Part shown: positions 2,422-55,108 of the stretch, piece after piece
How the letters are laid out: each line of letters opens with the position of its first letter
How positions within the stretch are numbered: the first letter of the stretch is position 1
DNA from: Microbacterium sp. TNHR37B
Lineage (GTDB): Bacteria; Actinomycetota; Actinomycetes; Actinomycetales; Microbacteriaceae
Direction of reading: 5' to 3'
Assembly (NCBI RefSeq): GCF_001620065.1
Contig: NZ_LQGV01000001.1
Location: 1,426,001-1,490,000 of the forward strand
Length of the DNA: 64,000 nt
The notes under the pieces: generated by a model
Databases searched by the model: none
What the model was told of the DNA's origin: nothing
What the model saw: only the letters and a program-made list of their open reading frames with translations
Made by a program: the position numbers and the translations under genes

Positions 2422-2503
2422 CACAACGGCGGATCCGGCGGCCCCTCCATCGGCGCGTCGCCGCCGTCGCGCGGCGTGTCGCCCCCCGTGATCCGCCGTT
2501 GTG
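2422..2503. repeat. Dispersed 82-bp inverted-repeat element, copy 1
   Basis: The ends are a perfect 14-bp inverted repeat (CACAACGGCGGATC at 2422-2435 and its complement at 2490-2503). An internal CGGCGTGTCG box lies near the right arm. Two related elements occur at 27677-27757 and 55028-55108 (both 81 bp). Read as reverse complement, this copy has the box about 23 nt from the left end, matching the others. It lies in the 269-bp gap downstream of the PEP-mutase-family gene; I see no gene in the rest of that gap. Confidence 0.75.
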
Positions 2504-2600
2504 CTCGGCAACAGGTGACCGAGCGGTCGGCACAGGGGCACCCCCTCACGGCGGGCACACCGACGCGCCCCGAGCGGCCGGCCAGCCCCGCCGCGATGGA

Positions 2601-3383
2601 TCAGTTCAGGGCGCGCGTGGAGGAGGGGATGACGCCGTCGGCGTAGAGGCTCTTGGCCACATCCTGCAGCGCGGTCAACGCCACCCGCTGGGTCAGGGGG
2701 CCGTAGGAGATGCGTGCCACGCCGAGCGCCTCGTACTCCGCCGCGCTCAGGGCGCCCGGCAGCCCGATGACACTCACCTTGCGTTCCCCGATGCCTTCCA
2801 CGAGCTGACGAGTGACGTCGGCGTCGAGGATCCCGGGGACGAAGATCACGTCGGCGCCCGCCTGGAGGTAGGCCCGCCCGCGCTCGATCGCGTCGGCGAT
2901 CGACTCCTCGACCGGGCGATCCCCCGCCCGGACGAACGCGTCGGTGCGGGCGTTCAGCGCGAACGGCACACCCTCTGCCTCGCCCGCGCGGACGATCGCC
3001 TCCACCGCGGCCACGGCATCGCCGAGCGGCCGCAGGCGATCCTCGACATTCGCGCCGACGGCTCCGACGCCGATGGCGCGCCGGGCGGTGTCACCGGGGT
3101 CGCCGAAACCCGCGTCGAGGTCTGCGCTGACCGGCACGTCGCCGGCGACCGACACGATGCGGCCGACCATGTCGAGCATGAGGTCGCGCGGGATGTTCTC
3201 GCCGTCGGCATATCCGAAGGTCGCCGCGATCGAGTGCCCCGCGGTGGCCAGCGCCCGCGTCTCGGGGAGAGCCAACACCGCTTGTGCCGACACGACATCC
3301 CACACGTTGACGACCCGGAGGATCTCGGGGGCGGTGTGGAGGGCGGACAGGGTCTGCGCGCGCTGCGCGGTGCTCGTGGTCAT
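2601..3383 (-). CDS. Isocitrate lyase/PEP mutase family protein
   Basis: 260 residues, a normal length for the ICL/PEP-mutase TIM-barrel superfamily (members cleave or form C-C or P-C bonds on oxoacids such as 2-methylisocitrate, oxaloacetate or phosphonopyruvate). The metal-site signature VSADLDAGFGDP, a conserved VEDR and NARTDAF are visible. The KKCGH catalytic loop of true isocitrate lyases is missing, so this is one of the small actinobacterial members of uncertain substrate. The ATG at 3383 is preceded by a leaderless-type -10 box and no Shine-Dalgarno. It stands alone. Confidence 0.85.
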   Translation of the reverse strand: MTTSTAQRAQTLSALHTAPEILRVVNVWDVVSAQAVLALPETRALATAGHSIAATFGYADGENIPRDLMLDMVGRIVSVAGDVPVSADLDAGFGDPGDTARRAIGVGAVGANVEDRLRPLGDAVAAVEAIVRAGEAEGVPFALNARTDAFVRAGDRPVEESIADAIERGRAYLQAGADVIFVPGILDADVTRQLVEGIGERKVSVIGLPGALSAAEYEALGVARISYGPLTQRVALTALQDVAKSLYADGVIPSSTRALN

Positions 3384-3389
3384 GCTTCC

Positions 3390-3395
3390 ACGGTA
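3390..3395 (-). promoter_or_regulatory. Leaderless -10 box of the PEP-mutase-family gene
   Basis: TACCGT (minus strand) lies 6 nt before the ATG at 3383. This spacing puts the transcription start at or next to the start codon. Confidence 0.55.
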
Positions 3396-3483
3396 GCCGC
3401 CGCCGAAGCGGCGAGGACCGGGATCGACGAGTTCGCCCGGGCAGCCCGCAGCACCCGCCCGAGACGCCGCCCGCGCCCGCGGA

Positions 3484-3660
3484 TCAGGACGAGCGGCGGA
3501 GCATCCCCCGCAGCACGAAGAACACGACGGCGGCGACGATCGCCACGATGACGAGCTTGACGATGAAGGCCAGCACGCTGAAGATCACGTTGACGAGCAC
3601 CCAGGCGATCACGACCGCCACGACGACGCCGACGATGGTCCACAGCCCGTTCCTGGTCAT
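3484..3660 (-). CDS. Small two-helix membrane protein
   Basis: 58 residues from the ATG at 3660 (MTRNGLWTIVGVVVAVVIAW). Almost the whole protein is two hydrophobic helices followed by a basic tail (RGMLRRSS). I do not recognise a family. The frame extends to 3720, but the ATG at 3660 has a TACGCT box 6 nt upstream, which fits a leaderless start. It diverges from the ATP-grasp gene at 3744. Confidence 0.6.
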   Translation of the reverse strand: MTRNGLWTIVGVVVAVVIAWVLVNVIFSVLAFIVKLVIVAIVAAVVFFVLRGMLRRSS

Positions 3661-3666
3661 CCCTCC

Positions 3667-3672
3667 AGCGTA
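3667..3672 (-). promoter_or_regulatory. Leaderless -10 box of the small membrane protein
   Basis: TACGCT (minus strand) lies 6 nt upstream of the ATG at 3660, and the intervening GGAGGG abuts the start codon too closely to act as a normal ribosome binding site. Confidence 0.5.
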
Positions 3673-3729
3673 GGTCACGGTCTCGCCGCGCGATGCCTCC
3701 GCGGCGCCGTCGCCCTGCATCCGCCCCGC

Positions 3730-3735
3730 TACGCT
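3730..3735 (+). promoter_or_regulatory. Leaderless -10 box of the ATP-grasp gene
   Basis: TACGCT lies 8 nt before the GTG at 3744 and supports that start over the ORF opening at 3693. Confidence 0.5.
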
Positions 3736-3743
3736 GGGGCCTC

Positions 3744-4640
3744 GTGAGCTCCCCCGCGCGTATCGGCATCGTCGTCACCGACGGCTACACGGAGGAAGAC
3801 CCGGACCACGACACACCCCTGCTCGTGGCGGCGCTCCTCGACCGCGGCGCGGCAGCGTCGGCGGTCGTCTGGCACGCCGGCGACGATCCGGCCTCCTACG
3901 ACCTCCTCGTGCTGCGATCGCCGTGGGACTATCCGGATCGCCTGGACGAGTTCCAGGACTGGCTATCCCGGGCGGCGGCGTCCACCCGCCTGGCCAACTC
4001 GCCCGCGATCGTCCGCTGGAACCTCGACAAGACGTACCTCAGCGAGCTGGCCTCGGCGGGCATCGCCGTCGTCCCCACCCGTTACTGCCGCACGACTTCG
4101 GAGGCGGCGGAGGCGCTCGACGCAGCGACTTCCGCACGCGTGGTCGTCAAGCCGACGATCTCGGCCGGCGCTCGCGACACCGGGCTCTTCGCGCGGTCGG
4201 ATCCCGCCGCGCTCGCCCTGGCGGAGCGGATCGTCGCCCGCGGCGGCGTCGCGATGATCCAGCCCGAGATCGCCGAGCTCACCGCCGGCGCGGAGAAGGC
4301 GCTGTACGTCATCGAGGGCGCGTTCACCCACGCCATCGCGAAGGGGGCTCTCCTGGCTCCCGGCGGCGGGCTCATCGGCGGCGTCTACGTCGAAGATCCA
4401 CAACCGGTGCCGGCGACCGCTGCCGAACGCGGCTTCGCCGCCGATGTGCTCACCGCCGTCGCGGCGATCACCGGGGAGGGGATGCCCCTGTATGCCCGCG
4501 TCGACACGGTCGACAGCGCGGAGTTCGGGCTCGTCGTCCTCGAGGTCGAACTGATCGAGCCGGCCCTCAACCTGCACCGGGCCCCCGAGGCGATGCCCGC
4601 GGTCGCCGACGCGATCCTGCGCGCGGCGTCTCACCCCTGA
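3744..4640 (+). CDS. ATP-grasp domain protein (DcsG-like)
   Basis: 298 residues from GTG 3744. The layout is that of ATP-grasp ligases: an N-terminal Rossmann-like part (ARIGIVVTDGY... DLLVLRSPWDY), a lid with the nucleotide-binding VVVKPTISAGARDT, and a C-terminal metal-binding segment (YARVDTVDSAEFGLVVLEVELIEPALNL). The RSPWDY, WNLDKTYL and FGLVVLEVELIEP segments resemble the DcsG-type family that includes the cycloserine-ring-forming ligase. No other cycloserine or peptide-ligation gene is nearby, so the acceptor is unknown. Confidence 0.8.
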   Translation: MSSPARIGIVVTDGYTEEDPDHDTPLLVAALLDRGAAASAVVWHAGDDPASYDLLVLRSPWDYPDRLDEFQDWLSRAAASTRLANSPAIVRWNLDKTYLSELASAGIAVVPTRYCRTTSEAAEALDAATSARVVVKPTISAGARDTGLFARSDPAALALAERIVARGGVAMIQPEIAELTAGAEKALYVIEGAFTHAIAKGALLAPGGGLIGGVYVEDPQPVPATAAERGFAADVLTAVAAITGEGMPLYARVDTVDSAEFGLVVLEVELIEPALNLHRAPEAMPAVADAILRAASHP

Positions 4641-4710
4641 CCCGGTCTCCACACCGGCCACCCCGCGATCACGACGCCCTCCCGGTCGGCGACCTCCGGA
4701 TGACGGCATC

Positions 4711-4740
4711 TTGACGCGGACGGACGGCAGCCGCTACGGT
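4711..4740 (+). promoter_or_regulatory. Sigma-70-type promoter
   Basis: TTGACG (4711-4716), an 18-nt spacer and TACGGT (4735-4740). Transcription would begin near 4747 and give an untranslated leader of roughly 165 nt before the ATG at 4914. Confidence 0.55.
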
Positions 4741-4853
4741 CGGCTCTCGTGTCTGCCTCCCGCTTGCCCTCTCGCGCCCGTTGCGGCGCTGGTCGGCGCG
4801 CGGTCGAGGTCCGGTCGAACCCAGGGAGCCGTGCCTCCGCCACGGCATAGCCC

Positions 4854-4878
4854 GCATCGGTCGGCTCCCGACCGATGC
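4854..4878 (+). other. Leader hairpin upstream of the 4914 gene
   Basis: An 11-bp perfect stem (GCATCGGTCGG / CCGACCGATGC) with a 3-nt loop lies inside the predicted leader, 35 nt before the ATG. No U-tract follows, so this is not a standard terminator. It may be a translational or RNA-stability element. Confidence 0.5.
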
Positions 4879-4913
4879 ATCCTCCAGTTCCTCTCGACCC
4901 AGAACACACGACC

Positions 4914-5312
4914 ATGGACACGACTCTGTGGAGCGACGACCAGTTCCGCTCCTTCTTCGCGGCCCTCCGCGATCACTCCTGCTTCGCCGAGCCCGACGAC
5001 GCGCAGCGCGACGCCTTCCTCGTGCAGGCGCGTCTGCGCCTCGCCCCCGAGGTGCAGCGCCGCCTGCTCACCGACCTCGGCGCAACGACCGACGCCCAGG
5101 GCATCGCTCGCGTCGCTTGGGAAGCACTCGAAGACGAGGCGTGGGGGAAGCGGCGCTCCTGGCTGCTCGTGTCGACCGAGCCGTGGGGTGTGCTCGTCGA
5201 CCTCGTGACGCGCCAGATCCGCGAGTCGTACCGGGCGAGCGTGCGCCGTCCGCGCGCCAAGGCGCTCAAGGAGCTCGCGCGCGCGAGCGACGACGCACCG
5301 GGCGGCGCCTGA
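4914..5312 (+). CDS. Hypothetical protein, all-alpha, basic C-terminus
   Basis: 132 residues from the ATG at 4914 (MDTTLWSDDQFRSFFAAL). It is predicted soluble and helical, with a basic tail (RRPRAKALKELARAS). I recognise no family. There is no good Shine-Dalgarno, and an alternative ATG at 4875 would add 13 residues and sit within the hairpin. It converges with the NYN gene, leaving a 13-nt gap. Confidence 0.6.
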   Translation: MDTTLWSDDQFRSFFAALRDHSCFAEPDDAQRDAFLVQARLRLAPEVQRRLLTDLGATTDAQGIARVAWEALEDEAWGKRRSWLLVSTEPWGVLVDLVTRQIRESYRASVRRPRAKALKELARASDDAPGGA

Positions 5313-5325
5313 GGCGACGAGGCGC

Positions 5326-5880
5326 TCAGTCCAGGAAGAAGGCCGGGTCGAACTCGTCGATCGGGATGATCCGCACGCGGGGAAGCTGCGCGTCGAAGGC
5401 GTGCACGTCGTACTCGAGGTCGAAGAACTCGACCCCGGGGATGCTCGCGAGCTCCGCACTGCGGAACTCCTGGAACCCGATGAGACCGACCCGGCGCATG
5501 CCGTCGGCGAGCGCAGCCGTCTCGGCGACGAAGTCCCGGTCGTGGCTGACCAAGACCACGTCGGCGTCGCGCTCTCCGAGCGTGCGGAGGGTTCGCTGGA
5601 TGGCGATGTCCACCACCTTGGCATCCGACGGCCCTGAGAGCGGCACGGGACGATAACCCAGAGCGAGGAGCGCCTGCACGAAGGACATGGGCAAGTGATC
5701 GGAGGCATTGAGGAAGAACAGTCCCTTGGCGGGCTGGTGCCAGCGGTCGGCGACGAAGCCGAGCAGGCGATCCCACCGGGGGCGCTCCTCCGGCTGCGGG
5801 CGGCGCCCGAGGATGGAGCCGCCGAGCGTGGCGTCGATGTTCTCGCCGTCGACCAGCACCCAACTGTTGCGCTCGGACAC
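5326..5880 (-). CDS. NYN-domain (LabA/DUF88-like) putative RNase
   Basis: 184 residues. The PIN-like NYN fold is indicated by the N-terminal VLVDGENID (D11, N14, D16), the central SDAKVVDIAIQRTL and the VVLVSHDRDF motif; these acidic residues normally hold the metal of the nuclease centre. Proteins of this family are predicted single-strand RNA nucleases. Start: GTG at 5880 with an AGGGAG ribosome binding site upstream. No partner gene is apparent. Confidence 0.8.
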   Translation of the reverse strand: MSERNSWVLVDGENIDATLGGSILGRRPQPEERPRWDRLLGFVADRWHQPAKGLFFLNASDHLPMSFVQALLALGYRPVPLSGPSDAKVVDIAIQRTLRTLGERDADVVLVSHDRDFVAETAALADGMRRVGLIGFQEFRSAELASIPGVEFFDLEYDVHAFDAQLPRVRIIPIDEFDPAFFLD

Positions 5881-6007
5881 CGCTGCTCCCTGCTGTGCTG
5901 TGAGAACCGGATGCTCACCGCACCCGACGACGGATCGGTCGCGTCGCTGGAGCCGACGCTAGCAGGCCCGGGGTGCGACCAGGCCAGCGGGGGGCCGGCC
6001 CGACGTG

Positions 6008-7249
6008 TCAGTCGCGAGCGGAGCGCGCAGCCCCGTCGACGGGAGTCCGGACGCGCGAGTTGACGAGGCCGAGCACCAGGACGAGGGAGGCGGCGACGAC
6101 GGGGAGCAGCATCGCGACCTGGGCCGACGCCGTCTCGGCCACGGCACCGGTGACCGCGGCCGCGATCGCCTGCGCGAGGGTGAGCGCCGATCCCAGCAGC
6201 GTCATGGTCGTGGCTGACCTGCCGGCGGGACTGCGCTCCCCCGCCAGGCTGAACAGCGTGACCAGGGTGGGGCCGACGCCGAGTCCCATGAGGCACAACA
6301 TGACCGTGACCGCGCCGAGGTCGTTCGCGAACGCGTACCCCGCTGCCGACGCCACCAGCACACCGCTGAAGACGAGCCATCGCCACGACAGCCGGAACCG
6401 GGACGGAAGCAGCATCACCGTGAGAGCCAGGACGGCAGAACCGATCCCCATGAGGCCGTAGAGGAGGCCCGACAGCTCGGGGCGGCCGCTGGCCTTCGCG
6501 AACGCGGTGAGAGAGGTGAGGGTCGAGCCGAAGAACAGGCCGACGCCGAAGGTCGCCGCCACGAGCAACAGCACGGGTCCGCTCAGCACGGCGCCCAGCG
6601 GCGCACGCCCGGCGGCCGGCGCGGGAGCACGGTCGACGAGCGCGGCGGTGGAGTGCAGGGCGAAGGCGGTCACGAAAGCGAAACTCAGCGCAGCGGCGAT
6701 CGCGATCGGGGCCCACGGGGCGAAGAGGGCGGCGAGGAGACCCACGAGGACGGGACCCACGACGAACGCCGTCTCGTCGGCGGCAGACTCATACGACATC
6801 ACGCGGGACAGCGTGCGCTCGCGGCGCGGCTCGGCCACCCGTTCCCGTGTGATCGCGATCAGCCGGGTGCGCGACAGTGCCGCCGCCTGCGGGGCCGTCA
6901 GGCCGATCAGCGCCCCCGCCGCGAGGATCGCAGCGTCGGGGAGGCCCGACAGGACGACGAGAGGGAACAGGCTCAGCAGCACTCCGTTCGCGATCCCGAT
7001 GGGAAGCAGCACGGGCCGTTGCCCGAACCGGTCCACGAGGTCGCCGATGAGAGGTCCTGCCACGACGACGCCCACGCCGACGGCGCCCGAAGTCAGGCCG
7101 GCGAGAGCGACCGAATCGGTCGCGGACGACACGAGGGTGAGGACGCCCACGACCATCATCGCGAACGGCAGTCGGGCGAGGAAGGCGACCGGGAAGTAGC
7201 CCCAGCCGGTGTGGTGGATCAGGGAACGATCACGCGTGATCGTCGTCAT
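6008..7249 (-). CDS. MFS transporter
   Basis: 413 residues with about 12 hydrophobic segments. It has the MFS loop 2-3 signature (GPLIGDLVDRFGQRPVLLPIG) and a long central cytoplasmic loop rich in Arg/Glu. Such actinobacterial drug:proton-antiporter-like proteins usually export small molecules; the substrate cannot be told. The ATG at 7249 has a good GGAGG site 6 nt upstream, which decides the start over the much longer open frame. Confidence 0.85.
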   Translation of the reverse strand: MTTITRDRSLIHHTGWGYFPVAFLARLPFAMMVVGVLTLVSSATDSVALAGLTSGAVGVGVVVAGPLIGDLVDRFGQRPVLLPIGIANGVLLSLFPLVVLSGLPDAAILAAGALIGLTAPQAAALSRTRLIAITRERVAEPRRERTLSRVMSYESAADETAFVVGPVLVGLLAALFAPWAPIAIAAALSFAFVTAFALHSTAALVDRAPAPAAGRAPLGAVLSGPVLLLVAATFGVGLFFGSTLTSLTAFAKASGRPELSGLLYGLMGIGSAVLALTVMLLPSRFRLSWRWLVFSGVLVASAAGYAFANDLGAVTVMLCLMGLGVGPTLVTLFSLAGERSPAGRSATTMTLLGSALTLAQAIAAAVTGAVAETASAQVAMLLPVVAASLVLVLGLVNSRVRTPVDGAARSARD

Positions 7250-7350
7250 AGGTGCCTCCGGAACAGTCGGCTCGTCGTCACGTGCCGCCTTGCTCCCACA
7301 AGCAGGTAGATGCACCTCCACGTCCGCCGATCGGCGGGCGCCCCTCGATT

Positions 7351-9138
7351 CTAGCGGAGCCTCCTGCCACCACCCCGGGTGCCCCGACCCCGAGCCGAGG
7401 CGCGGGAGAACACCCCCGCCGTCACCGCGTGCAGGAGCGGCACGACCGAGAGCGACATGAGGACGATCCCCGACACGGAGTCGGTGGCCTGCAGGATCGC
7501 GCCGGCCACCAGGAGCGCGGCGAAGACGACAGCCGACACCACCCGACGTACCGCGAGGTCGAGCCGATCCAGCTTCCGCTCGACGGCAGGACTCTCCACG
7601 CGCAGTCGCCCCTCCTCGGCACGGGTCACCAGCGCATCGATCTTGCCCGGCAGTCGCGCGGCCGTTCCCCCGAACGACACGACGCGCGAGACCACGTCGC
7701 GCACCACTCCGCGCGTCTCCTCGGCGAGGAGCCGCTGCGCGTAGGGATCGACCGCCTCCCAGATGTTGAACGTCGGATCCAGCGCGCTGCACAGCCCCGA
7801 GGTGAGCGACATGGCGCGGATGATGAGGAGGAAGTCCTCCGGGAACTGGAACGGCAGCGAGCGCATCACCTCGCCGAACTCGTCGGCGAACGCGCGGAAC
7901 TCCCGCGGATCCACCTCCTGCAGCTCCGCGAACCCCATGCCGCCGAAACGCGCGAACAACTGCGTGAGAGCGTGTTCGAGGTCGGCGGTGTCGGCCGTCG
8001 GCAGCAGAACGCCGACGTCCTGGATGGCCGACACCAGTCCCGCACCGTCGCGTGCGGCGACGGCGAGGACGAGCCGCCGGAGTCCCCGACGCAGCCCCTC
8101 GGGTACGTGACCCATCATCCCGAAGTCGATGAACGTGAACCGCCACGCGGGATCCTCACCGGGCTCCCCCGGCGTGACGAAGATGTTGCCGGGATGCGGA
8201 TCGGCGTGGAAGAAACCGTCGCCGAAGAGCTGATCGAACATGACCGCCGCGAACTCGGCCGCCACCTCCGCGGGGTCGATCCCGGCCCGGCGCAGAGCCT
8301 CGACGTCGTTCACCTTGATCGCGGTGACATCGGCGAGGGTGAGCACACGCCCGGTGGTGCGTTCCCAGACGATCTCGGGCGCCGCGACGCGCGAGCGGTC
8401 GGCGATCTCCATCGCGAAGCGCTCGGCGTCGGCCGCCTCGTGGAGGTAGTCGATCTCCGCGTTGCTGGTGGTGGCGAACTCCTCCACCAGGGCCGGCATG
8501 TCCACGCGGTCGGAGACGATCCGTACCCGATCGAGCCACCGCGCGACGCGGCGGAGCGCCGCGAGGTCCACGGCGACGATGCGATCGATTCCCGGACGCT
8601 GCACCTTGACCACGACCTCGTCGAAGCCCGCGAGCCGCGCGTCTTCCTCGGCGAGCCGTGCGCGATGCGCCTGCCCGAGCGACGCGGCGGCGAGAGGGCG
8701 CTCGTCGACCCACGAGAACGCCCGCTCGAGCGTGACGCCCAGTTCCGTCTCGGCGAGAGCGCGGATCGCGGGAAACGGAACGGGCGGCACCTCGTCCTGC
8801 AGCTGTTCGAGCTCCCGAGTCACTTCCGGCGGAAGGACATCGAGCCGCGAGGAGAGGAACTGGCCGACCTTGATCATGAGCCCACCGAGGTCCACCGCCA
8901 ATCCGCGGAAGCGCTGGGCGGTGCGCTGCAGGCGCCGCGCACGCGTGCGCTCCGCCACGCGCCGCAACCCGACGCGGGGAAGGGCGAGCTCGTACCACCA
9001 CGTCTGCGCGATCGCGCGCGCCGCGAAGCGAAGGATGCGGCGGTACCGCGCGCGTCCGTCGGGAGACGGCGTCTCCACGACGGCCACGCGGGAATCCCCC
9101 CGCCCGCGCGCCGGGGACGGGGAATCGGGCCGGGCCAA
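7351..9138 (-). CDS. ABC1/UbiB-family atypical kinase
   Basis: 595 residues. The diagnostic KxGQ motif (LMIKVGQFLSSR, residues 90-93), AAASLGQAHRA, the ExD-type segment and HADPHPGNIF are all present. The family is a protein-kinase-like fold with ATPase activity that acts on isoprenoid-lipid metabolism (UbiB/Coq8). The last ~80 residues contain two transmembrane helices anchoring it to the membrane. It follows the PadR gene by 6 nt, so it is very likely its regulated partner. In menaquinone-using actinobacteria the exact role is unclear. Confidence 0.88.
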   Translation of the reverse strand: MARPDSPSPARGRGDSRVAVVETPSPDGRARYRRILRFAARAIAQTWWYELALPRVGLRRVAERTRARRLQRTAQRFRGLAVDLGGLMIKVGQFLSSRLDVLPPEVTRELEQLQDEVPPVPFPAIRALAETELGVTLERAFSWVDERPLAAASLGQAHRARLAEEDARLAGFDEVVVKVQRPGIDRIVAVDLAALRRVARWLDRVRIVSDRVDMPALVEEFATTSNAEIDYLHEAADAERFAMEIADRSRVAAPEIVWERTTGRVLTLADVTAIKVNDVEALRRAGIDPAEVAAEFAAVMFDQLFGDGFFHADPHPGNIFVTPGEPGEDPAWRFTFIDFGMMGHVPEGLRRGLRRLVLAVAARDGAGLVSAIQDVGVLLPTADTADLEHALTQLFARFGGMGFAELQEVDPREFRAFADEFGEVMRSLPFQFPEDFLLIIRAMSLTSGLCSALDPTFNIWEAVDPYAQRLLAEETRGVVRDVVSRVVSFGGTAARLPGKIDALVTRAEEGRLRVESPAVERKLDRLDLAVRRVVSAVVFAALLVAGAILQATDSVSGIVLMSLSVVPLLHAVTAGVFSRASARGRGTRGGGRRLR

Positions 9139-9144
9139 GAGCGC

Positions 9145-9771
9145 TCAGCCCCGCGCGAGGATGGCGTAGAGCTTGCGCCGCGCCTCGTCGATGACCTCGA
9201 CGGCCTCCTGGATCTGCTCCGACGTTCCGGTGCGCCCCACCTGCATGGCGGCCTGCGCGAGGTGTGCGCCCGCCTTCGGCAGCGCGCCGTGGCGGTGGCC
9301 CTGCGCGTCGGGTGCCGAATCGCCGGACGCTCCCTCGGCGCTCGCCCACGGCCGGTCCGTGTGCTCGGACTCGGTGCGGCCGGCGGGGGTCAGGGAGTAG
9401 GTCTTGCGTCCGGCCGACTCCTCCACCTCGATGAGCCCTTCGTCGGTCAACAGCTGCAACGTGGGGTAGACCGAGCCCGGGCTGGGCTTCCACGACCCGC
9501 CGCTGCGCTCCTCGATCTGCTGGATGATCTGGTAGCCGTGCATCGGCTGCTCGGCGAGCAGCGAGAGGATCGCCGCACGGACGTCGCCGCGTCCCACGCG
9601 CGTGCCCACCTTCTGCCCGAAGGCCTGGCCGAACCCCTGCCCGAAGGTCTGCTCGAACCCCTGCCGCAGCTGGCCGAGCGTGTCCCACAGCTCTTGCGGC
9701 ATGCCGGATCCGAAGCCCTGACCCGAGAAGCGTCCCGAGAACCCGTCACCCATGTGTGCGCGATCATTCAT
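9145..9771 (-). CDS. PadR-family transcriptional regulator
   Basis: 208 residues. The central winged helix ([47 protein letters not shown]) is typical of PadR. A Gly/Phe/Gln-rich N-terminal extension with repeated FGQ units and an unusual hydrophilic linker after the wing precede a C-terminal dimerisation helix. The start ATG at 9771 has GGAGG at 6 nt; the track frame upstream runs through the operator. It probably represses itself and the UbiB-like gene through the dyads at 9784-9813. Confidence 0.88.
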
Positions 9772-9783
9772 GTCGTCCTCCAA

Positions 9784-27552: not shown

Positions 27553-27676
27553 TAAAGCTGATTCGGAGCATAGCGGCGCCGTCGTTCCTTCCGCAACCCT
27601 TCGCCGCACCGCGGGTGCGAATGGCAGCCGGGTGCGGGACGCGGGTGGTGCGGACCGCGGCGTGCGTCCGCGCGTG

Positions 27677-27757
27677 CACAGCGGCGGATCCCCAGGCCGA
27701 CACGCCGCACACACCACCGCGACACGCCGCATGACGCCCGCCCTCTCCGCCGTTGTG
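27677..27757. repeat. Dispersed 81-bp inverted-repeat element, copy 2
   Basis: Left arm CACAGCGGCGGATC (27677-27690), right arm TCCGCCGTTGTG (27746-27757), internal CGACACGCCGC at 27698-27708 and again at 27720-27730. Same arm and box spacing as the copies at 2422 and 55028. The ~305-bp gap between the LacI start and the SDR stop holds only this and the operator region. Confidence 0.75.
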
Positions 27758-27821
27758 TCCCGAGCGGCCCGCCGCCGGGCCGAGCCCGACGGAGGGCCGG
27801 CATCAGCCCCGAGGATGTCGA

Positions 27822-28646
27822 CTAGAGGCCGAGGAGGGCGGCACTGCGGCGCCAGAGTTCGGCGGCGAGCTCGACGTCGTCAGCAAGCGGATTCGTGCGC
27901 GCGAGCCGATTGCGCTCGTAGTAGCCGCCGCGACGCCACCGGGCCCCCGGCTCGCCCTCGGCGAGCCAGGTCAGGCGGGCGCCACCGGTCTCGGTCGACG
28001 TGAGCACGCGGCGGGCCAGCGGGTGGTGATACAGGAACTCCCACGCCCCACCCGCGCCGGCGGCGAAGCTGGTCGCGACGACGCCCGGGTGGAACGCGAC
28101 AGCGGAGAGCGCCGGTCCGTACCTCCGATCGAGCTCTCGCGTGAACAGGATGTTGGCGAGCTTGGCATTGCCGTAGGCCGTGCCGGGATTCCAGCGGCGC
28201 TCGCCCTGGAGATCGTCGATGTCGAACCGGGCGAATCGGCGCGCAGCCACCGACGCGGTCTGGATCACCGCCGCACGACTCAGACGCGGCATCAGGAGGT
28301 GGGTCAGGAGGAACGGTGCCAGATGGTTGACCTGAAAGGTGCGCTCGAAGCCGTCGACGGTCACGGCGCGCGGCGAGGGCATGACTCCCCCCGCGTTGTT
28401 GGCGAGCACGTCGATCGTCGGTGCCTCCCTCGTGAGGTCGTCGGCCAGACGACGCACTTGGTCGAGGTCGCCGTAGTCGGCGACGAAGAACGGGGCGCCG
28501 ATCTCCCCCGCCAGAGCGCGGGTCTTCTCTGAATCGCGTCCGACGACGATGACGCGATGCCCGTCTGCGCTGAGCTGCCGCGCGGCCGCGGCACCGATGC
28601 CGTCGCTCGCGCCGGTGATCACGATCGTGCGCGGCGCTCCGCTCAT
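27822..28646 (-). CDS. SDR family oxidoreductase
   Basis: 274 residues from ATG 28646. Classical SDR motifs: TGASDGIG cofactor loop, NNAGG, catalytic Ser in QTASVA, YGNAK (Tyr/Lys). The length and GGYYERNRLARTNPLADD tail resemble retinol-dehydrogenase-like SDRs; the substrate is unknown. An alternative ATG at 28655 overlaps the DUF427 stop; both give a full domain. Last gene of a leftward unit with DUF427, HTH_42 and DUF4386 genes. Confidence 0.88.
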   Translation of the reverse strand: MSGAPRTIVITGASDGIGAAAARQLSADGHRVIVVGRDSEKTRALAGEIGAPFFVADYGDLDQVRRLADDLTREAPTIDVLANNAGGVMPSPRAVTVDGFERTFQVNHLAPFLLTHLLMPRLSRAAVIQTASVAARRFARFDIDDLQGERRWNPGTAYGNAKLANILFTRELDRRYGPALSAVAFHPGVVATSFAAGAGGAWEFLYHHPLARRVLTSTETGGARLTWLAEGEPGARWRRGGYYERNRLARTNPLADDVELAAELWRRSAALLGL

Positions 28647-28648
28647 GC

Positions 28649-29164
28649 TCACCATCCCACCGATCCCGGCACACCCTTGAAGGGCCCGACGACGGCAGCC
28701 GTGATCCACCCGCCGTAGAACCCGCCGGGCTGCGGCTGCACCGTCTCGCCCGCCACGGTGCACCGGTCCATCGCCCCGGCGTAGATGGCGACACGGCCGC
28801 GCAACGCTTCGAACCCGGGCGCCGGATCGGGATATGCCCATCCGGCGCGCTCGCGCACCCAGCCGCCACCCAGCACGTCGACGTACGAGGCCATCCCCTT
28901 GTACTCGCAGAACGACGATCCTTCGGCCGGCCGGAGGGATCCGGCGACGAACGCATCGACCGGGAGGTAGTAGACCGGCGGATGGCTCGTCTCGAGCACC
29001 CGGACGACGTCGGTCGTATCGGCGATCAGTTCACCGCCGAGCTCGACCGTGACCCGCTCCGGCACCGCTTCCAGACGTGGCGGGCGGGGGTAGCTCCACA
29101 CCGATTCCTGCCCGGGCCCGACAGGATCGGGCGTGACGGGAGGCCGACGCCGACCGGACCTCAT
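28649..29164 (-). CDS. DUF427 domain protein
   Basis: 171 residues from ATG 29164. DUF427 signatures: VYYLPVDAF, FCEYKGMASYVDV and RAGWAYPDPAPGFEAL. The family forms small beta-sandwich proteins of unknown function common in Actinobacteria. The start overlaps the HTH_42 stop by 4 nt, favouring it over the earlier ATG at 29194. Confidence 0.88.
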   Translation of the reverse strand: MRSGRRRPPVTPDPVGPGQESVWSYPRPPRLEAVPERVTVELGGELIADTTDVVRVLETSHPPVYYLPVDAFVAGSLRPAEGSSFCEYKGMASYVDVLGGGWVRERAGWAYPDPAPGFEALRGRVAIYAGAMDRCTVAGETVQPQPGGFYGGWITAAVVGPFKGVPGSVGW

Positions 29165-48205: not shown

Positions 48206-48262
48206 AAGAATCGCGGGGCTCCGCCTCTTCCCCCGGCCCGGAAGACCGTGAATAATAGTGGT

Positions 48263-48886: not shown

Positions 48887-48988
48887 TCCACCTCACCGGG
48901 TCTTTTTCACGGCTGGCTCCGCGGCCGGCTGGCAAAGGCCTGTGTACCTTCAGGCAATAGGAAGACCCACGCTCGGGGAGGGACTCGC

Positions 48989-50434
48989 ATGGACTTTCTT
49001 GATCCACTGCTGCTGGCGCGCTGGCAGTTCGGACTGACCACTCTGTACCACTTCATCTTCGTTCCGCTGACGCTCGGGATGTCGCTGTTCGTCGCGATCT
49101 TCCAGACCGCGTGGTACCGGACGGCGAACGTGAAGTGGCTGTACCTGACGAGGTTCTTCGGGAAGATCTTCCTGATCAACTTCGCCATGGGCATCGTCAC
49201 CGGCATCGTCCAGGAGTTCCAGTTCGGCATGAACTGGTCGTCCTACAGTCGCTTCGTCGGAGACGTGTTCGGAGCCCCCCTCGCCTTCGAGGGACTCATG
49301 GCGTTCTTCTTCGAGGCCACCTTCATCGGCCTGTGGATCTTCGGGTGGAACAAGCTTCCGCGCGGCCTCCACCTCGCGACGATCTGGATCACGGTCGCCG
49401 GCACGTGGCTCTCGGCCTACTTCATCCTCGCCGCCAACGCCTTCATGCAGAACCCGCAGGGCTTCAAGATGTCCGAGGAAGGACATCGCGCCGAGATGGC
49501 GAACTTCGGCGAGGTGCTCACCAACCCCGTCGCCCTGACGCAGTTCCCCCACACGATCTTCTCCGCGATCATGTTCGCCGCCGGAGTCATGGTGGCCGTC
49601 GCCGCCTGGCACCTCTCGCGCAAGCAGCATGAAGAGATGATGCGCCCGGCGCTCCGCCTCGGACTGTGGTCGGTCGTCATCGCGTTCGCCGGCGTGGCGC
49701 TCTCGGGCGACCAGCTCGGTCTCGTGATGGTCCAGACGCAGCCGATGAAGATGGCCGCCGCTGAAGCGCTCTTCAACAACGCGTGCGGCGCGAACGCCTC
49801 GTTCTCCCTGTTCTCGATCGGAACGCCCGACGGCACGAGCGAGATCTGGTCACTGCGCGTGCCGCACCTGCTCGCCTTCCTCTCCACTCACGATCTGAAC
49901 GGCTGCGTCGAGGGCATCAACGACCTCAACGCGAAGTACGCGACCGAGCTGTTCCCGCAGTTCGCCGACCAGGTCGACGGCAACTTCGCGCCGATCCTGT
50001 GGGTCACCTACTGGTCGTTCCGCTGGATGATGGGCTTCGGCGGTCTCGCCGCCCTCATCGCCGTCGTCGGCCTCTGGGTCACCCGCAAGAACGCCAAGCG
50101 TCCGGTCGCCGGCTGGATGTGGAAGATCGCCATCTGGCAGGCGCCGCTGGCCCTCCTCGGCATCCTGGTCGGGTGGGTGTTCACCGAGATGGGGCGCCAG
50201 CCCTGGATCGTCTTCGGCCAGATGCTCACGCAGGACGGCGTCTCGCCGAGCGTCCCCGGCTGGACGGTGCTCATCTCGCTGATCGCGTTCACGCTGATCT
50301 ACCTCATCCTCGCGGTCGTCGAGTTCGGTCTCATCTTCAAGACCGTCAAGACCGGCCCCGACCCGCTGCCCGGACCGGACGACCCCGATCCGTCCGATCT
50401 CTCGGTCGACCAGACCCCGTCGACGGTGTACTAG
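48989..50434 (+). CDS. cydA: Cytochrome bd ubiquinol/menaquinol oxidase subunit I
   Basis: 481 residues. The N-terminal WQFGLTTLYHFIFVPLTLG carries the heme-ligand His21, and GWVFTEMGRQPW holds the conserved GRQPW motif. The Q-loop is short, as in Gram-positive bd oxidases. Contains nine transmembrane helices. It oxidises quinol and reduces O2 with high affinity. GGGAGG precedes the ATG. cydB follows 9 nt downstream. Confidence 0.97.
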   Translation: MDFLDPLLLARWQFGLTTLYHFIFVPLTLGMSLFVAIFQTAWYRTANVKWLYLTRFFGKIFLINFAMGIVTGIVQEFQFGMNWSSYSRFVGDVFGAPLAFEGLMAFFFEATFIGLWIFGWNKLPRGLHLATIWITVAGTWLSAYFILAANAFMQNPQGFKMSEEGHRAEMANFGEVLTNPVALTQFPHTIFSAIMFAAGVMVAVAAWHLSRKQHEEMMRPALRLGLWSVVIAFAGVALSGDQLGLVMVQTQPMKMAAAEALFNNACGANASFSLFSIGTPDGTSEIWSLRVPHLLAFLSTHDLNGCVEGINDLNAKYATELFPQFADQVDGNFAPILWVTYWSFRWMMGFGGLAALIAVVGLWVTRKNAKRPVAGWMWKIAIWQAPLALLGILVGWVFTEMGRQPWIVFGQMLTQDGVSPSVPGWTVLISLIAFTLIYLILAVVEFGLIFKTVKTGPDPLPGPDDPDPSDLSVDQTPSTVY

Positions 50435-50443
50435 GAGCCCGCC

Positions 50444-51478
50444 ATGGATCTCGCCTACCTCTGGTTCTTCATCGTCGGAGTGCTGTTCGTCGGCTACTTC
50501 GTGCTCGACGGCTTCGACTTCGGCGTCGGGATGTCGCTTCCCTTCCTCGGCAAGGACGAAGTGTCGCGCCGCCAGGTCATCAACACGATCGGCCCTGTCT
50601 GGGACCTCAACGAGACCTGGGTCATCGTCGCCGGCGCGTGCCTGTTCGCGGCATTCCCCGAGTGGTACGCCACGCTGTTCAGCGGGTTCTACCTCGCCCT
50701 GCTGCTCATCCTGCTGGCGCTCATCGCCCGTGGCGTGTCGTTCGAGTACCGGCACCAGCGCGATGACCCCCGCTGGAAGCGGCGCTTCGACTGGATGATC
50801 GTGATCGGCTCGGCCCTTCCGGCGCTCCTGTGGGGCGTGGCGGTCGCCAACATCGTGCAGGGCGTCCCGATCGACGCCGACCACGAGTTCACGGGCTCGC
50901 TGTTGACGCTCCTCAACCCGTACGGGCTGTGGGTCGGCGTCACGACCCTGCTGCTCTTCTTCCTGCACGGCGTCTACTTCGTCGGCCTGAAGACCGACGG
51001 GCAGGTGCATCACGACGCGCAGGCGCTCGGCAAGAAGCTCGCGATCCCGACGGTGATCTTCGCGGCCGGGACGGTCGTCTGGACGATCTTCCTCGCTGCC
51101 GGACGCGAGGCTCCGCTCCTGTGGGCCGTGATCGCCTGCGGCGCGATCGCCGCCGTCGCCCTCCTCGTCTCGGTGTTCTTCAACTGGGCCGACCGTGACG
51201 GCCGTGCGTTCGCCGCCGGTGCGGTGACGATCGTCTTCGCCGTGCTGACCTTGTGGCTCGCGCTGTTCCCGTTCGTCATGCCGTCCTCGACGGACCTGGC
51301 GAACAACAGCCTCACGATCTCCAACGCGTCCAGCACCGAGATGACGCTCCAGATCATGTCGTGGGCGGCGCTCATCTTCCTGCCGCTCGTGCTCCTGTAT
51401 CAGGGCTGGACCTACTGGGTGTTCCGCAAGCGCGTCACGCGATCGGTCATCGAGAAGGCGGAGGCCGCGGCGCACTGA
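50444..51478 (+). CDS. cydB: Cytochrome bd oxidase subunit II
   Basis: 344 residues, eight helices. Starts MDLAYLWFFIVGVLFVGYFVLDGFDFGVG, a signature of CydB. AGGAG at the start. A strong hairpin terminator follows at 51502, so the oxidase genes can be expressed without the cydDC exporter. Confidence 0.97.
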   Translation: MDLAYLWFFIVGVLFVGYFVLDGFDFGVGMSLPFLGKDEVSRRQVINTIGPVWDLNETWVIVAGACLFAAFPEWYATLFSGFYLALLLILLALIARGVSFEYRHQRDDPRWKRRFDWMIVIGSALPALLWGVAVANIVQGVPIDADHEFTGSLLTLLNPYGLWVGVTTLLLFFLHGVYFVGLKTDGQVHHDAQALGKKLAIPTVIFAAGTVVWTIFLAAGREAPLLWAVIACGAIAAVALLVSVFFNWADRDGRAFAAGAVTIVFAVLTLWLALFPFVMPSSTDLANNSLTISNASSTEMTLQIMSWAALIFLPLVLLYQGWTYWVFRKRVTRSVIEKAEAAAH

Positions 51479-51501
51479 CCGCACACCGTGTTCACCGGGT
51501 T

Positions 51502-51536
51502 CCGGGGCGGCGAGGAGCGACACCTCGCCGCCCCGG
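51502..51536 (+). terminator. Rho-independent terminator after cydB
   Basis: Perfect 14-bp stem CCGGGGCGGCGAGG / CCTCGCCGCCCCGG, 7-nt loop, followed by CTCTTTTCCCC. It splits cydAB from cydDC. Confidence 0.85.
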
Positions 51537-51593
51537 CTCTTTTCCCCCCTCCCCCGCCCGCCCACACACCGACCGATCTGCGAGGATCGAAGA

Positions 51594-53336
51594 ATGCCGG
51601 ATGACGACACGACGAGAGCCCCCGCGCGCGGGCGCCCCGTCGATCCCCGGCTCCTGCGGTACGCGACAGCGGCACGCGGGTTCTTCGTCGTCATCGCCCT
51701 GATCGGGCTCGCTCAGACGGCAGTCACGATCGCCTTCGCCTGGACGCTCACGCGGGCGATCACGGGCGCGATCGAGCGCGAGCCTCTCACCGAGGTGCTG
51801 GGATGGTTGACGGCCACCATCGTGCTGCGCGCCCTCCTGCTGTGGGCACGCGATACCGTGTCGGCCCGCGCGGCCGCGCGCGTGCAGGCGCAGCTGCGCG
51901 GCACCCTCGTCGACGCCGTGGGGACGCTCGGGCCCGGGTGGCTCGAGACGCAGAACAGCGCACGGCTGGCGGTCACCGCCGGTCGGGGCCTGGAAGCGCT
52001 CGACGCCTACTTCGCGCGTTATCTTCCGCAGCTGACGCAGACGATGATCGCGACGCCGATCATCCTGGCGGTCATGTGGTGGCAGGACTGGATCTCGGGT
52101 CTCACGGTGCTGCTGACCCTCCCCCTCATCCCGCTGTTCATGATCCTCATCGGATTGGCGACCCGATCGGTCCAGCAGAAGCAGTGGAACACCCTGGGAC
52201 AGCTCGCTGCCCGGTTCGCCGATACCGTCCGGGGCCTGTCCACGCTGAAGGTGTTCGGCCGCCACCGCCGAGCGGTCACCTCGATCCGCACCGTCACCGA
52301 TACGTACCGCCGGGAGACGATGCGCGTGCTGCGTGTGTCGTTCCTCTCGGGCTTCGCGCTGGAGCTCCTCGCCTCCATCGCCGTCGCCATCGTCGCCGTC
52401 ACGATCGGGTTCCGCCTCATGGACGGGTCGTTGACGCTCGTGGTGGGTCTTTTCGTCCTCCTCCTCGCCCCCGAGGCGTACCTGCCGCTCCGGCAGGTCG
52501 GCGTGCAGTTCCACGCCGCCGCGGAGGGCGTGGCCGCCACCGACGACGTGTTCGCGGTGCTCGATGCCGCCCGTGACCTCCGGCGCGCGCCCACGCAGGC
52601 CGCGTGCGCCGACACCGGTACGGCGGTCGACGACCGCGCTCTCGAGGTGTGCGACCTGCGCGTCGTCCGCGGCGACCGCGAGCTGGCCCCGGTGTCGTTC
52701 ACCGCCGCGCGCGGCACCGTGACCCTCATCGAGGGGCCGAGCGGCAGCGGGAAGTCGAGCCTCCTCGCGGCGCTCCGGGGAGCCGCTGCGTTCCGCGGCA
52801 CCGCGACATTCGGAGGCGTGGGCGTCGACGTGCTCGATCCGGCCACGTGGATCGCGTGGGCAGGCCAGAACCCCGGTCTCATCGGCGGCACCGTCGCCGA
52901 CAACGTCGCACTCGGCGAGGGGGACGGCGCGGGCGAGTCCGGCGCCCCCTCGCCACAGTCCTCCGGTTCCGACCGCGACGCGCGTGTCCGCGACGCACTG
53001 TCCCGCGCCGGTGCGGCCGAGATCGAGCCGGACCGTGTGCTCGGAGTGCAGGGGGCCGGACTGTCGGGCGGGCAGTCGCAGCGGGTCGCGGTGGCCCGCG
53101 CGATCCATCACCACCTCCACCACCGCGTGCCCGTCCTCGCGCTGGACGAGCCCAGCGCCGCCCTCGATCCCTTCACCGAGGCCGAGCTGTGGTCGCAGGT
53201 GCGCCGCCTGGCCGACGAGGGCGCGATCGTCCTCCTCGTCTCCCACCGCACCTCGGCCCGCGCGATCGCCGACCACGTGCTCGACTACTCCGCGGAGCCC
53301 GCGGGCGTGCCCTTCCCTGAGGGGGTGGACGCATGA
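51594..53336 (+). CDS. cydD: Thiol reductant ABC exporter subunit CydD
   Basis: 580 residues: six-helix ABC membrane domain then ATPase (GPSGSGKSS; LSGGQSQRVAVARAIHHHLHH; VLALDEPSAALDP; LLVSHRTSARAIADHVL). With CydC it exports cysteine/glutathione-type reductants needed for cytochrome bd assembly. A loop between Walker A and the signature contains a long Gly/Ser insert (GDGAGESGAPSPQ). The start ATG is 57 nt after the terminator. Confidence 0.95.
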   Translation: MPDDDTTRAPARGRPVDPRLLRYATAARGFFVVIALIGLAQTAVTIAFAWTLTRAITGAIEREPLTEVLGWLTATIVLRALLLWARDTVSARAAARVQAQLRGTLVDAVGTLGPGWLETQNSARLAVTAGRGLEALDAYFARYLPQLTQTMIATPIILAVMWWQDWISGLTVLLTLPLIPLFMILIGLATRSVQQKQWNTLGQLAARFADTVRGLSTLKVFGRHRRAVTSIRTVTDTYRRETMRVLRVSFLSGFALELLASIAVAIVAVTIGFRLMDGSLTLVVGLFVLLLAPEAYLPLRQVGVQFHAAAEGVAATDDVFAVLDAARDLRRAPTQAACADTGTAVDDRALEVCDLRVVRGDRELAPVSFTAARGTVTLIEGPSGSGKSSLLAALRGAAAFRGTATFGGVGVDVLDPATWIAWAGQNPGLIGGTVADNVALGEGDGAGESGAPSPQSSGSDRDARVRDALSRAGAAEIEPDRVLGVQGAGLSGGQSQRVAVARAIHHHLHHRVPVLALDEPSAALDPFTEAELWSQVRRLADEGAIVLLVSHRTSARAIADHVLDYSAEPAGVPFPEGVDA

Positions 53337-54994
53337 CCTCGGCCGCCGACATCCTCCGGGGCGCGATGCCGTCCGCTCGCCGATTCTGGCCCGGGGCGGC
53401 GTCCGGATTCGCGTCCGAGGCGTCGGCTGTCGCGCTCCTCGCCGTCAGCGCCTGGCTCATCGTCCGCGCAAGCGAACAGCCGCTGCTCATGTACATCTCG
53501 GCGGCCGTCGTGGGGGTGCGGATGTTCGCCCTCACGCGCGCCGCGTTCCGGTACACCGAGCGTCTCGCGAGCCACGACGCGGCCCTTCGGCAACTCGCCG
53601 ACACCCGCACCGACCTCGTGCGGCGGCTCGTGCCCCTCGCCCCGGACGGCCTGACCCGCACGCGGCGCGGCTCGGTGCTGGGCGCGCTCGTCGACGACGT
53701 CGACGAGCTCCAGAACCTGCCCCTGCGCGTCGTGCTCCCGCTCGTCTCGTCGACCGCGGTCGCGCTGGGCGCGGTCGTGCTGATCGCGTTCGTGTGGTGG
53801 CCCGCCGCCCTCACCCTGCTCGGGTGTCTCGTGATCGCGGCGGCGGCGGCATCTGCGTGGGGCTGGGCCTCCGGGTCGCGCGCGGAGAGGTCGATCGCCC
53901 CCCTGCGGGCCGCCCTGTCCGACGCCGTGACCGACCATCTCGGCAGCCTCGACGTGCTCGCGGCGTACGGCGCCGAGGCCGCCAGCCGCGAGCGCATCGC
54001 CCGCGCCGATCAGCGGCTCCGCCGGGCCGTCGTCCGGCGTGCCGGATCTCAGGCGGGAACCGCCGCCGTCGTCTCGCTCCTCGCGGGCGCGGCCTCCCTC
54101 CTCGCCGTCCTCGTGTCGGCACCGGCGATCGCCTCGGGCCATCTCGGCGGACCCGAGATGGCGGTCGCGGTGCTCGTTCCCATGGCCGTCTTCGAGGTGT
54201 TCGCGGCCGTCCCCTTGGCCGCGGCCTCGTGGCGGCAGGTGCGCGCCGCCGCGACGCGTATCGCCGACGCCGTCCCCGCCGACGTTCCCGCCGAGCTCCC
54301 CCGGGATCGCGAGCCGACCGGCCGGGCACCGGCGCTCGGCTCCGGGATTCGCCTGCGCGGCGTGACCGCACGGTGGCCGCACACCGCAGAACCGTCGCTC
54401 CACGGCGTCGACCTCGATGTCGCGCCCGGTGAGCGGCTGCTCGTCGTCGGCTCCAGCGGCGCCGGCAAGACGACCCTCGCGCATGTCTTGGTCCGCTTCC
54501 TCGAGATCGAGGGCCAGTACGCGATCGGGGACGCCGACGTCGCGACGCTCTCCCCCGATGACGTGCGCCTCACGGTGGGCCTGTGCGAGCAGAACCCGAT
54601 GCTCTTCGACGAAGACATCCGTCAGAACCTCCTGTTCGCGCGCGACACCGCCACGGATGCGGAACTGGAGGCGGCGCTCGACGCCGTGGGACTCGGTGAC
54701 TGGGTGCGCGAGCGTGGCGGACTCGACGCGCGCGTCGGCGAGCGGGGCGCCCTCGTCTCGGGCGGACAGGCCCAGCGCATCGCCTTGGCTCGGGCACTCC
54801 TCCACGGGTTCGACGTCCTCGTGCTCGATGAGCCGACCGCCGGCGTCGATCCCGCGGCCTCCGATGCCCTCCTTGCCGACCTGCTGACGGCGGTCGGGGA
54901 CGACCGCGCCGTCGTCCTCATCTCCCATGTCCGCGTGCCCGACGGCCTCGTCGACCGCACGGTGCGGCTCGAGAACGGCCGCATCGCCGATTGA
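53333..54994 (+). CDS. cydC: Thiol reductant ABC exporter subunit CydC
   Basis: 553 residues, membrane domain plus ATPase (GSSGAGKTT; VSGGQAQRIALARALLHGFDVLVLDEPTAGVDP; LISHVRVPDGLVD). Partner of CydD; the start overlaps the cydD stop by 4 nt. In the switch region His is conserved. Downstream lies copy 3 of the dispersed repeat. Confidence 0.95.
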   Translation: MTSAADILRGAMPSARRFWPGAASGFASEASAVALLAVSAWLIVRASEQPLLMYISAAVVGVRMFALTRAAFRYTERLASHDAALRQLADTRTDLVRRLVPLAPDGLTRTRRGSVLGALVDDVDELQNLPLRVVLPLVSSTAVALGAVVLIAFVWWPAALTLLGCLVIAAAAASAWGWASGSRAERSIAPLRAALSDAVTDHLGSLDVLAAYGAEAASRERIARADQRLRRAVVRRAGSQAGTAAVVSLLAGAASLLAVLVSAPAIASGHLGGPEMAVAVLVPMAVFEVFAAVPLAAASWRQVRAAATRIADAVPADVPAELPRDREPTGRAPALGSGIRLRGVTARWPHTAEPSLHGVDLDVAPGERLLVVGSSGAGKTTLAHVLVRFLEIEGQYAIGDADVATLSPDDVRLTVGLCEQNPMLFDEDIRQNLLFARDTATDAELEAALDAVGLGDWVRERGGLDARVGERGALVSGGQAQRIALARALLHGFDVLVLDEPTAGVDPAASDALLADLLTAVGDDRAVVLISHVRVPDGLVDRTVRLENGRIAD

Positions 54995-55027
54995 CCGACG
55001 CGGGACACCGCGGCCTCGTCCGAGGAG

Positions 55028-55108
55028 CACAACGGCGGATCAGCGGCTCGACACGCCGAGGCACGAGCCGGTGAGGCCGGCGTGTGGTCGCAGATCTCCG
55101 CCGTCGTG
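55028..55108. repeat. Dispersed 81-bp inverted-repeat element, copy 3
   Basis: Left arm CACAACGGCGGATC (55028-55041), internal CGACACGCCG (55049-55058), an inverted internal CGGCGTGTGG, and right arm GATCTCCGCCGTCGTG (55093-55108). It sits between the convergent cydC and AraC genes, so it is downstream of both. Nothing else is seen in this 170-bp gap. Confidence 0.75.

Follow-up and report, generated by a model that had tools for sequence, protein, structure and literature searches.

Dispersed palindromic elements in Microbacterium are associated with genes for predicted AbiEi-Vsr fusion nucleases

RAYT proteins are transposases of the Y1 HUH type. The REPIN elements that go with them are described as dispersed extragenic doublets of inverted repeats found downstream of genes, with each family tied to its own enzyme (PMC3116915, PMC3733652). 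Two other descriptions are also relevant here: AbiEi-family antitoxins, reported to bind inverted repeats and to autoregulate (PMC7319586), and the Vsr-like REase domain named MTES_1575, described in a large HEPN/helicase protein (PMC3710099). Here we analyze a family of palindromic elements in Microbacterium sp. TNHR37B, three copies of which lie in a stretch of 64,000 nucleotides (the window; contig NZ_LQGV01000001.1, positions 1,426,001 to 1,490,000). We consider it probable that these elements represent dispersed cognate sites of a chromosomally encoded protein combining an AbiEi-like part with a nuclease of the Vsr/EDxHD type, that they spread through cutting and that the system works in a REPIN-RAYT-like manner with an unrelated nuclease. 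In the open-licence literature, judged from listings, no publication joining AbiEi-DUF559 proteins to palindromes was found.

A preliminary description of the three window copies had proposed a genome scan with a profile for further copies. A covariance model built from 12 copies identifies 44 distinct element places in the genome (E < 0.01), including those in the window. The element consists of an arm, a 9-10 bp spacer, the box CGACACGCCG, a middle segment, a second box, a spacer and the complementary arm. Forty-three of the 44 elements were read in detail and are 86 bp (6 copies), 87 bp (34) or 88 bp (3) long. Despite this near-fixed length, spacers are unrelated among copies with a median identity of 0.38. 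The seven most similar spacer pairs (identity at least 0.65) are neighbors within a few hundred bases and are best read as local duplications. Two adjoining elements (L074:2960-3046 and 3110-3196) form an inverted duplicate with a spacer identity of 0.97. In 6 of the 43 copies the second inner box is in direct orientation, 21-22 bp from the first; five of these were detected by script and one (L017, corresponding to window copy 1) by inspection.

A half-site pattern of arm, 9 bp and box, allowing up to 3 mismatches, yields 75 matches in the genome and 0 for the reversed control. All 75 half-sites fall inside the 44 elements, with 32 elements containing both halves, 11 containing one and 1 containing none. 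The element lacking a match is window copy 1, whose box is located 1 bp further from the arm. No lone half-sites or longer transposon ends were found outside the 44 elements in this genome at up to 3 mismatches. Within the 64-kb window alone, neither the 14-mer arm (up to 3 mismatches; 15 seen, 14.4 expected) nor the box (1 mismatch; 46 seen, 40.1 expected) is enriched; the significance of the elements comes from their paired architecture and the genome scan. At positions 16 and 17, inside the arm, the two halves of the elements of this genome agree less often than under random re-pairing (5/34 versus 12.3 and 2/34 versus 10.6). This hinted at a T:G mismatch beside the arm as a Vsr-like substrate, an idea that was dropped when 130 elements from other genomes failed to show the pattern.

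The covariance model places copy 1 (88 bp) at 2419-2506 on the minus strand (C1:1428419-1428506), copy 2 (87 bp) at 27674-27760 on the plus strand (C1:1453674-1453760) and copy 3 (87 bp) at 55025-55111 on the plus strand (C1:1481025-1481111), window coordinates being C1 coordinates minus 1426000. The arms are found exactly where they had been noted before, while the modeled elements extend slightly beyond the 81-82 bp given for them. In copy 1, both arms match CACAACGGCGGATC exactly (2422-2435, plus; 2490-2503, minus). The arms of copy 2 are located at 27677-27690 (plus, 1 mismatch) and 27744-27757 (minus, 2 mismatches) and those of copy 3 at 55028-55041 (plus, exact) and 55095-55108 (minus, 3 mismatches). 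Instead of the single internal box of the preliminary description, each copy possesses two. Copy 1 contains CGACACGCCG at 2472-2481 (minus) and CGACGCGCCG in direct orientation at 2451-2460 (minus, 1 mismatch), copy 2 contains CGACACGCCG at 27698-27707 (plus) and again, 22 bp on and direct, at 27720-27729 (plus), and copy 3 contains CGACACGCCG at 55049-55058 (plus) and the inverted box CCACACGCCG at 55078-55087 (minus, 1 mismatch). With two inner boxes the outer plan is dyad-symmetric, so that the reported inversion of copy 1 relative to the others is merely nominal. The nearest predicted gene 3' ends lie 94, 61 and 30 bp from copies 1, 2 and 3, respectively, rather than at the 100-180 bp estimated earlier. 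Copies 2 and 3 are located at the edge of segments (window 27553-28649 and 54995-62137; compared with L251-L258) that have no match in G008, a near relative, which has 78 bp between the flanking matches versus about 1.1 kb at copy 2 and 25 bp versus about 7.1 kb at copy 3. The left flank of copy 1 was not found in the G008 stretch compared.

Genes around elements in many genomes lead to a protein family of about 250-310 residues encoded between two elements. The likely cognate gene in the TNHR37B genome (approximately C1:1257822-1258649) is located about 168 kb outside the window with one element on each side and pstB and pabC as neighbors. Among six proteins compared with Pfam, the C-terminal DUF559 scores above its curated cut-off in five and the N-terminal AbiEi_4 in one, while MTES_1575 REase (PF18741) matches the nuclease domain below its curated cut-off in all six. 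PADLOC reports an AbiEi match at 1e-8 and NCBIfam gives no match for three proteins. In an AlphaFold2 model of the TNHR37B protein (mean pLDDT 85.9, pTM 0.82), residues 3-167 match the AbiEi antitoxin 6y8q with Z 7.8 (161 residues aligned at rmsd 4.6), and residues 170-271 match 3hrl (Z 10.1), I-Bth0305I, a homing endonuclease (3r3p, Z 9.9), and Vsr (1vsr, Z 8.4). Foldseek alone yields no match with E below 0.001 and the sole PDB match by sequence is 3hrl (E 1.5e-4). E175, D202, E212, D214, D228, R231 and D232 are conserved in all 37 genes compared and H219 in 36, the remaining one having a gap. The protein is thus predicted to consist of an AbiEi-like DNA-binding module (about residues 3-167) and a Vsr/EDxHD-type nuclease domain (about residues 170-271), with the EDxHD motif assigned by fold match. 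At E <= 1e-20, the AbiEi-DUF559 family is represented in 190 of the 198 genomes sampled from the genus. No match to the gene unit was seen in plasmids and none was confirmed in viral contigs; phages gave two weak protein matches only (30.5 and 27.0 percent).

Gene and elements are closely linked. Among the 30 best homologs in the genus, elements are present within 700 bp on both sides of 28 genes, on one side of one and on neither side of one. The profile used was built from eight genes chosen near elements, six of which (G072, G000, G006, G101, G146 and G153) are among the top 30; without these seeds, 22 of 24 homologs are flanked on both sides. A stricter earlier finder gave 18 genes with elements on both sides, 7 on one and 5 on none. 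At its threshold the flank finder produces no background match in the window besides copies 2 and 3. A gene at E <= 2e-95 is present in 52 of the 198 genomes, 50 of which contain elements, while among the 146 genomes without such a gene 56 contain elements and 90 have neither (Fisher p = 1e-14, nominal because related genomes are not independent). On one side of one nuclease gene (L152:997-1382), four elements are arranged with an exact 100-bp period.

The linkage may extend to other members of the family. Of 20 lower-scoring paralogs, 2 carry the element type of the window on both sides and 18 do not. However, 12 of these 18 have other matching palindromes and therefore represent no clean negative, and recQ was used as the control. 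Matching palindromes of any kind are found on both sides of 18/30 top genes, 14/20 paralogs and 0/30 recQ genes. The paralog palindromes (flanks L171-L190) include, for example, ACGGATGTCGGAC, CCGACACGCCAGATC, GACGGATCACGG and TTTGTCGGGAG. Ordinary hairpins may be included among them, for instance the short GCGGATGCCGC ones of L180 and L182. As most of these paralogs are palindrome-flanked and recQ genes are not, it may be a general rule that many AbiEi-Vsr paralogs have a palindrome of their own. Common 11-mers between flanks were also tried as a signal and proved uninformative, occurring in 91 of 200 random pairs.

Elements matching at E <= 0.001 are found in 106 of the 198 sampled genus genomes and in 47 of 249 family genomes (28 of 85 genera), with no element in G008 in the genus-wide scan. 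Two inner boxes in exact form, 17-21 bp apart, occur in 28 of 396 genomes of the order, spread over nine family labels, some being single matches without clear arms. The same element is detected by exact pattern in records of M. enclense NIO-1002 and M. sp. SORGH_AS_1204, and a genome with the genus label of the TNHR37B genome contains a letter-identical version of the M. enclense copy. Between species, the box and overall length are nearly constant and the arms vary, e.g. GTGCACAACTTCGGA, GTGCGAAAAGTCGGA and GTTCAAAACGACGGA, mostly with both halves altered together. Among the 130 elements from other genomes, the two halves agree at arm positions 9-15 much more often than random re-pairing would give (position 11 in 118/130 versus 45.8 expected), an agreement that is partly by construction because model and finder reward complementary arms.

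These arm dialects follow one part of the protein. Across 37 genes, the similarity of flanking arms correlates with protein identity at the N-terminus, a winged-helix region (rho 0.47), and in the middle region (0.44), and not in the nuclease region (0.00). Partial Mantel correlations are 0.41 for the N-terminal region given the rest, 0.44 for the middle given the rest (0/2000 permutations each) and -0.40 for the nuclease given the rest, the permutations taking no account of the genome tree. In 15 genomes possessing a solo element away from the gene, the arms of solo elements on average resemble those flanking the gene of the same genome (0.86) more closely than those flanking genes elsewhere (0.72; 0/10000 permutations). 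This pattern ties arm sequence to the AbiEi-like half. In the mechanism proposed below, the conserved nuclease half would read or cut the conserved box.

Genome comparison shows that single elements, and likewise whole element-gene-element units, occur in some species and are missing from relatives. At the pstB-pabC locus, analyzed for the 30 best PstB matches, the gene is present in 13 genomes, 11 of which also carry elements, and 17 have neither according to the finder. In G008, the genome with the closest PstB (97 percent), the flanking genes are about 50 bp apart. In the pstB-pabC spacer of G111 (L195), an apparent decayed TGCAATG-dialect element without a gene can be made out by eye, and at the same locus the relative G153 contains an intact unit of another dialect. 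The 30 best units occupy four contexts: 20 are at pstB and/or pabC, a pucR-like gene adjoins 5 others, and flank similarity places the remaining 5 in two additional groups. G153 and G111 (79-88 percent identity in the stretches aligned) also differ at single sites. At one, an older TGCAATGGAT-dialect element is present in both species and an adjoining CACAACGGCGGA element in G153 only, visible as an 83-bp alignment gap; at the second, a 134-bp gap includes an element. In-situ rewriting of arms at orthologous sites, favored at first from the pstB-pabC locus, was later weakened as an explanation because two dialects coexist in G153 and the element at recQ occurs in only 1 of 30 genomes. Another palindrome type is located downstream of recQ in G111 and G153 (L241, L249), with AGGTGGCA arms and, in G153, GGACACGCCGCTTC inside.

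All 43 copies read are intergenic, with array copies counted singly; 24 lie in tandem, 16 in convergent and 3 in divergent gaps. In tandem gaps, 20/24 elements are nearer to the 3' end of the upstream gene (p = 0.0015), in agreement with the placement near gene ends noted earlier, and the 40 tandem and convergent copies lie at a median of 52 bp from the closest 3' end. Comparison gaps of at least 80 bp in the window and loci, element gaps included, are 49 tandem, 20 divergent and 14 convergent. Gene calls other than Pfam-supported genes come from a simple codon-usage gene caller. No element at E < 0.01 is present in C1:1-721k, C3:1-669k or C2 of the TNHR37B genome, and dnaA is located at C3:997k (G000). 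In three closed genomes (G021, G163 and G093; one genome length rounded), 22/34 merged sites lie in the origin half, a bias too weak to serve as the basis for a reading. Besides the nuclease gene, no convincing recurrent neighbor of solo elements was found in 106 loci.

The working likeness to REPIN/RAYT systems is extensive and consists of a nuclease gene between palindromes, solo palindromes of the same dialect in tens of copies, an extragenic location downstream of coding regions and local arrays. The differences concern enzyme and element. The enzyme has an AbiEi fold joined to a Vsr/EDxHD-type nuclease, and no Y1_Tnp match is present in the six proteins, the whole genome not having been searched. 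Within 8 bp of the 86 element ends, GTAG is found 0 times and CGTC 7 times at scattered offsets, and the elements combine a near-fixed length and a conserved inner box with unrelated spacers. Given the different enzyme, membership of REPIN-RAYT fails and the likeness in working stands. A miniature inverted-repeat transposable element (MITE) would be expected to have a longer autonomous relative with the same terminal repeats; none is seen, all half-sites being inside the 44 elements, and the gene unit is instead bounded by two complete elements. The observation made in the preliminary description is confirmed and its interpretation partly supported: the elements are dispersed, extragenic, biased to 3' ends, present or absent between relatives and nuclease-linked, as a likeness to repetitive extragenic palindromes (REP), bacterial interspersed mosaic elements (BIME) or MITEs would have it, but the linked gene matches no RAYT or classical transposase in Pfam. 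The predicted two-domain fold of residues 3-167 resembles AbiEi/Rv2827c of the AbiE type IV toxin-antitoxin systems. In contrast to AbiE, the protein is fused to a nuclease domain, its sites are genome-wide rather than at one promoter, and its neighbors in the TNHR37B genome are pstB and pabC rather than a toxin gene, no DUF1814 profile search of the neighbors having been run. The nuclease half shares the predicted fold and conserved E/D/H residues with I-Bth0305I and Vsr, but in the loci read it is not in an intron or split gene and it possesses a DNA-binding module of its own and matching palindromes. Its profile match to MTES_1575 is likewise located in the nuclease domain, but MTES_1575 is described in a large HEPN/helicase protein rather than together with palindromes (PMC3710099).

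A mechanism consistent with these data can be proposed. Two protomers would bind the two element halves; the species-specific arm would be read by the AbiEi-like part, and the conserved nuclease part would act on the conserved box or close to it. The palindrome could be cut as duplex, cruciform or folded single strand, and host repair or replication after the cut would copy or move the element, so that mobilization would be due to the nuclease. Solo elements would represent non-autonomous copies and the element-gene-element arrangement the autonomous unit. Gene variants that bring in a new arm dialect would seed their own elements beside older ones, which would decay. We lean slightly toward a broader claim, namely that a large undescribed class of AbiEi-fold/Vsr-fold fusion nucleases exists, often several per genome, each sandwiched by, matched to and spreading its own palindrome family, and that this class is an independently evolved counterpart of REPIN-RAYT in this order with a two-part recognition of a fast-evolving arm and a conserved box.

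Several observations weigh against spread by the cognate nuclease. The proposed transposition, cutting and binding are deduced entirely from sequence. The AbiEi match at Z 7.8 is below the safe level, the tool warning that Z under 8 may reflect a common arrangement. Of the 106 element-bearing genomes, 54 have no gene at E <= 1e-90, some of them element-rich (e.g. G148 and G195), although one of the 54, G165, has a flanked gene just below the cut-off; G024 carries elements and has no gene match at E <= 1e-20. For two of the 13 pstB-pabC genes (L202 and L206), the finder reports no element. In just 6/15 genomes does the resident gene rank first for solo-arm similarity, because several genomes share a dialect, and in G065 it ranks last. 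Non-adjacent copies in the TNHR37B genome have no common spacer sequence and thus give no sign of recent copying beyond local duplication. The element at the recQ site is present in this genome only, among 30 genomes. Neither of the two occupied/unoccupied alignments of G153 and G111 reveals a clear target-site duplication, and at the first site, the cleaner one, G111 retains a short sequence, possibly an arm remnant, making loss as possible as gain.

The strongest competing explanation is a host protein, a regulator or an anchor, whose sites are maintained. The elements would then be operators or anchors of a resident AbiEi-nuclease regulator or chromosome-organizing protein, kept at gene ends for host function without mobility. 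Inverted-repeat binding and autoregulation by AbiEi-family antitoxins agree with such a role, as do the near-fixed length and box position with drifting spacers, the common location of the gene at one locus and the weak origin-side bias. We regard this explanation as unlikely, if to be taken seriously, since elements are found on both flanks of the cognate gene, downstream included, and are mostly placed at the 3' ends of genes rather than in promoters, and since the near relative G008 gave none in the genus-wide scan and single sites differ between related species. It is improbable that the protein is a free-standing homing endonuclease for which palindromes are cut or insertion sites, the flanking pair a product of gene conversion into a pre-existing palindrome and solo elements its targets. 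The resemblance to the I-Bth0305I catalytic domain and the presence or absence of the unit at one locus would fit, but neither the tens of solo elements in the arm dialect of the gene nor the arrays would be explained, and the finder detects no element in 17/17 gene-less pstB-pabC loci, though L195 looks decayed.

Mobilization of a REP/BIME or MITE family by a RAYT or insertion sequence (IS) transposase encoded elsewhere, with the nuclease gene a coincidence, would match the appearance and placement of the elements, REPs being described downstream of coding regions (PMC3733652). This is very improbable given the elements flanking the gene, the recQ control, the tracking of arm and protein and the confinement of half-sites to the 44 elements, in a genome that was not searched for RAYT or IS. 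Nearly negligible in our estimate is the alternative, raised in the preliminary description, that the elements downstream of genes represent a structured RNA or act as a bidirectional terminator. The 3'-end bias and a potential long hairpin would suit it, but within the TNHR37B genome arms pair no better than with right arms shuffled among copies, each half following the consensus, so that the arm covariation proposed as a check is missing there. Arm co-change between species goes with the protein and was not counted as RNA covariation. Additionally, a direct second box cannot pair with the first, and Rfam gives no family match in the window at gathering thresholds; on these grounds the alternative was rejected. 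attC-like sites, considered for their nested inverted repeats, were set aside once copies with direct boxes had been seen.

Spread by a cognate AbiEi-Vsr nuclease thus remains our preferred explanation, and the findings point to a bacterial genetic parasite, or a tamed mobile element, of a kind not described before. If correct, it would give a role to an uncharacterized family, the DUF559 proteins with an AbiEi-like N-terminus, and would add a REPIN-like system with different enzymology in high-GC Gram-positive bacteria. The natural arm dialects would provide an existing data set in which DNA-binding specificities are matched with their sites, and the spread and persistence of dispersed bacterial palindromes, a long-standing question, would become testable with one gene and its site.

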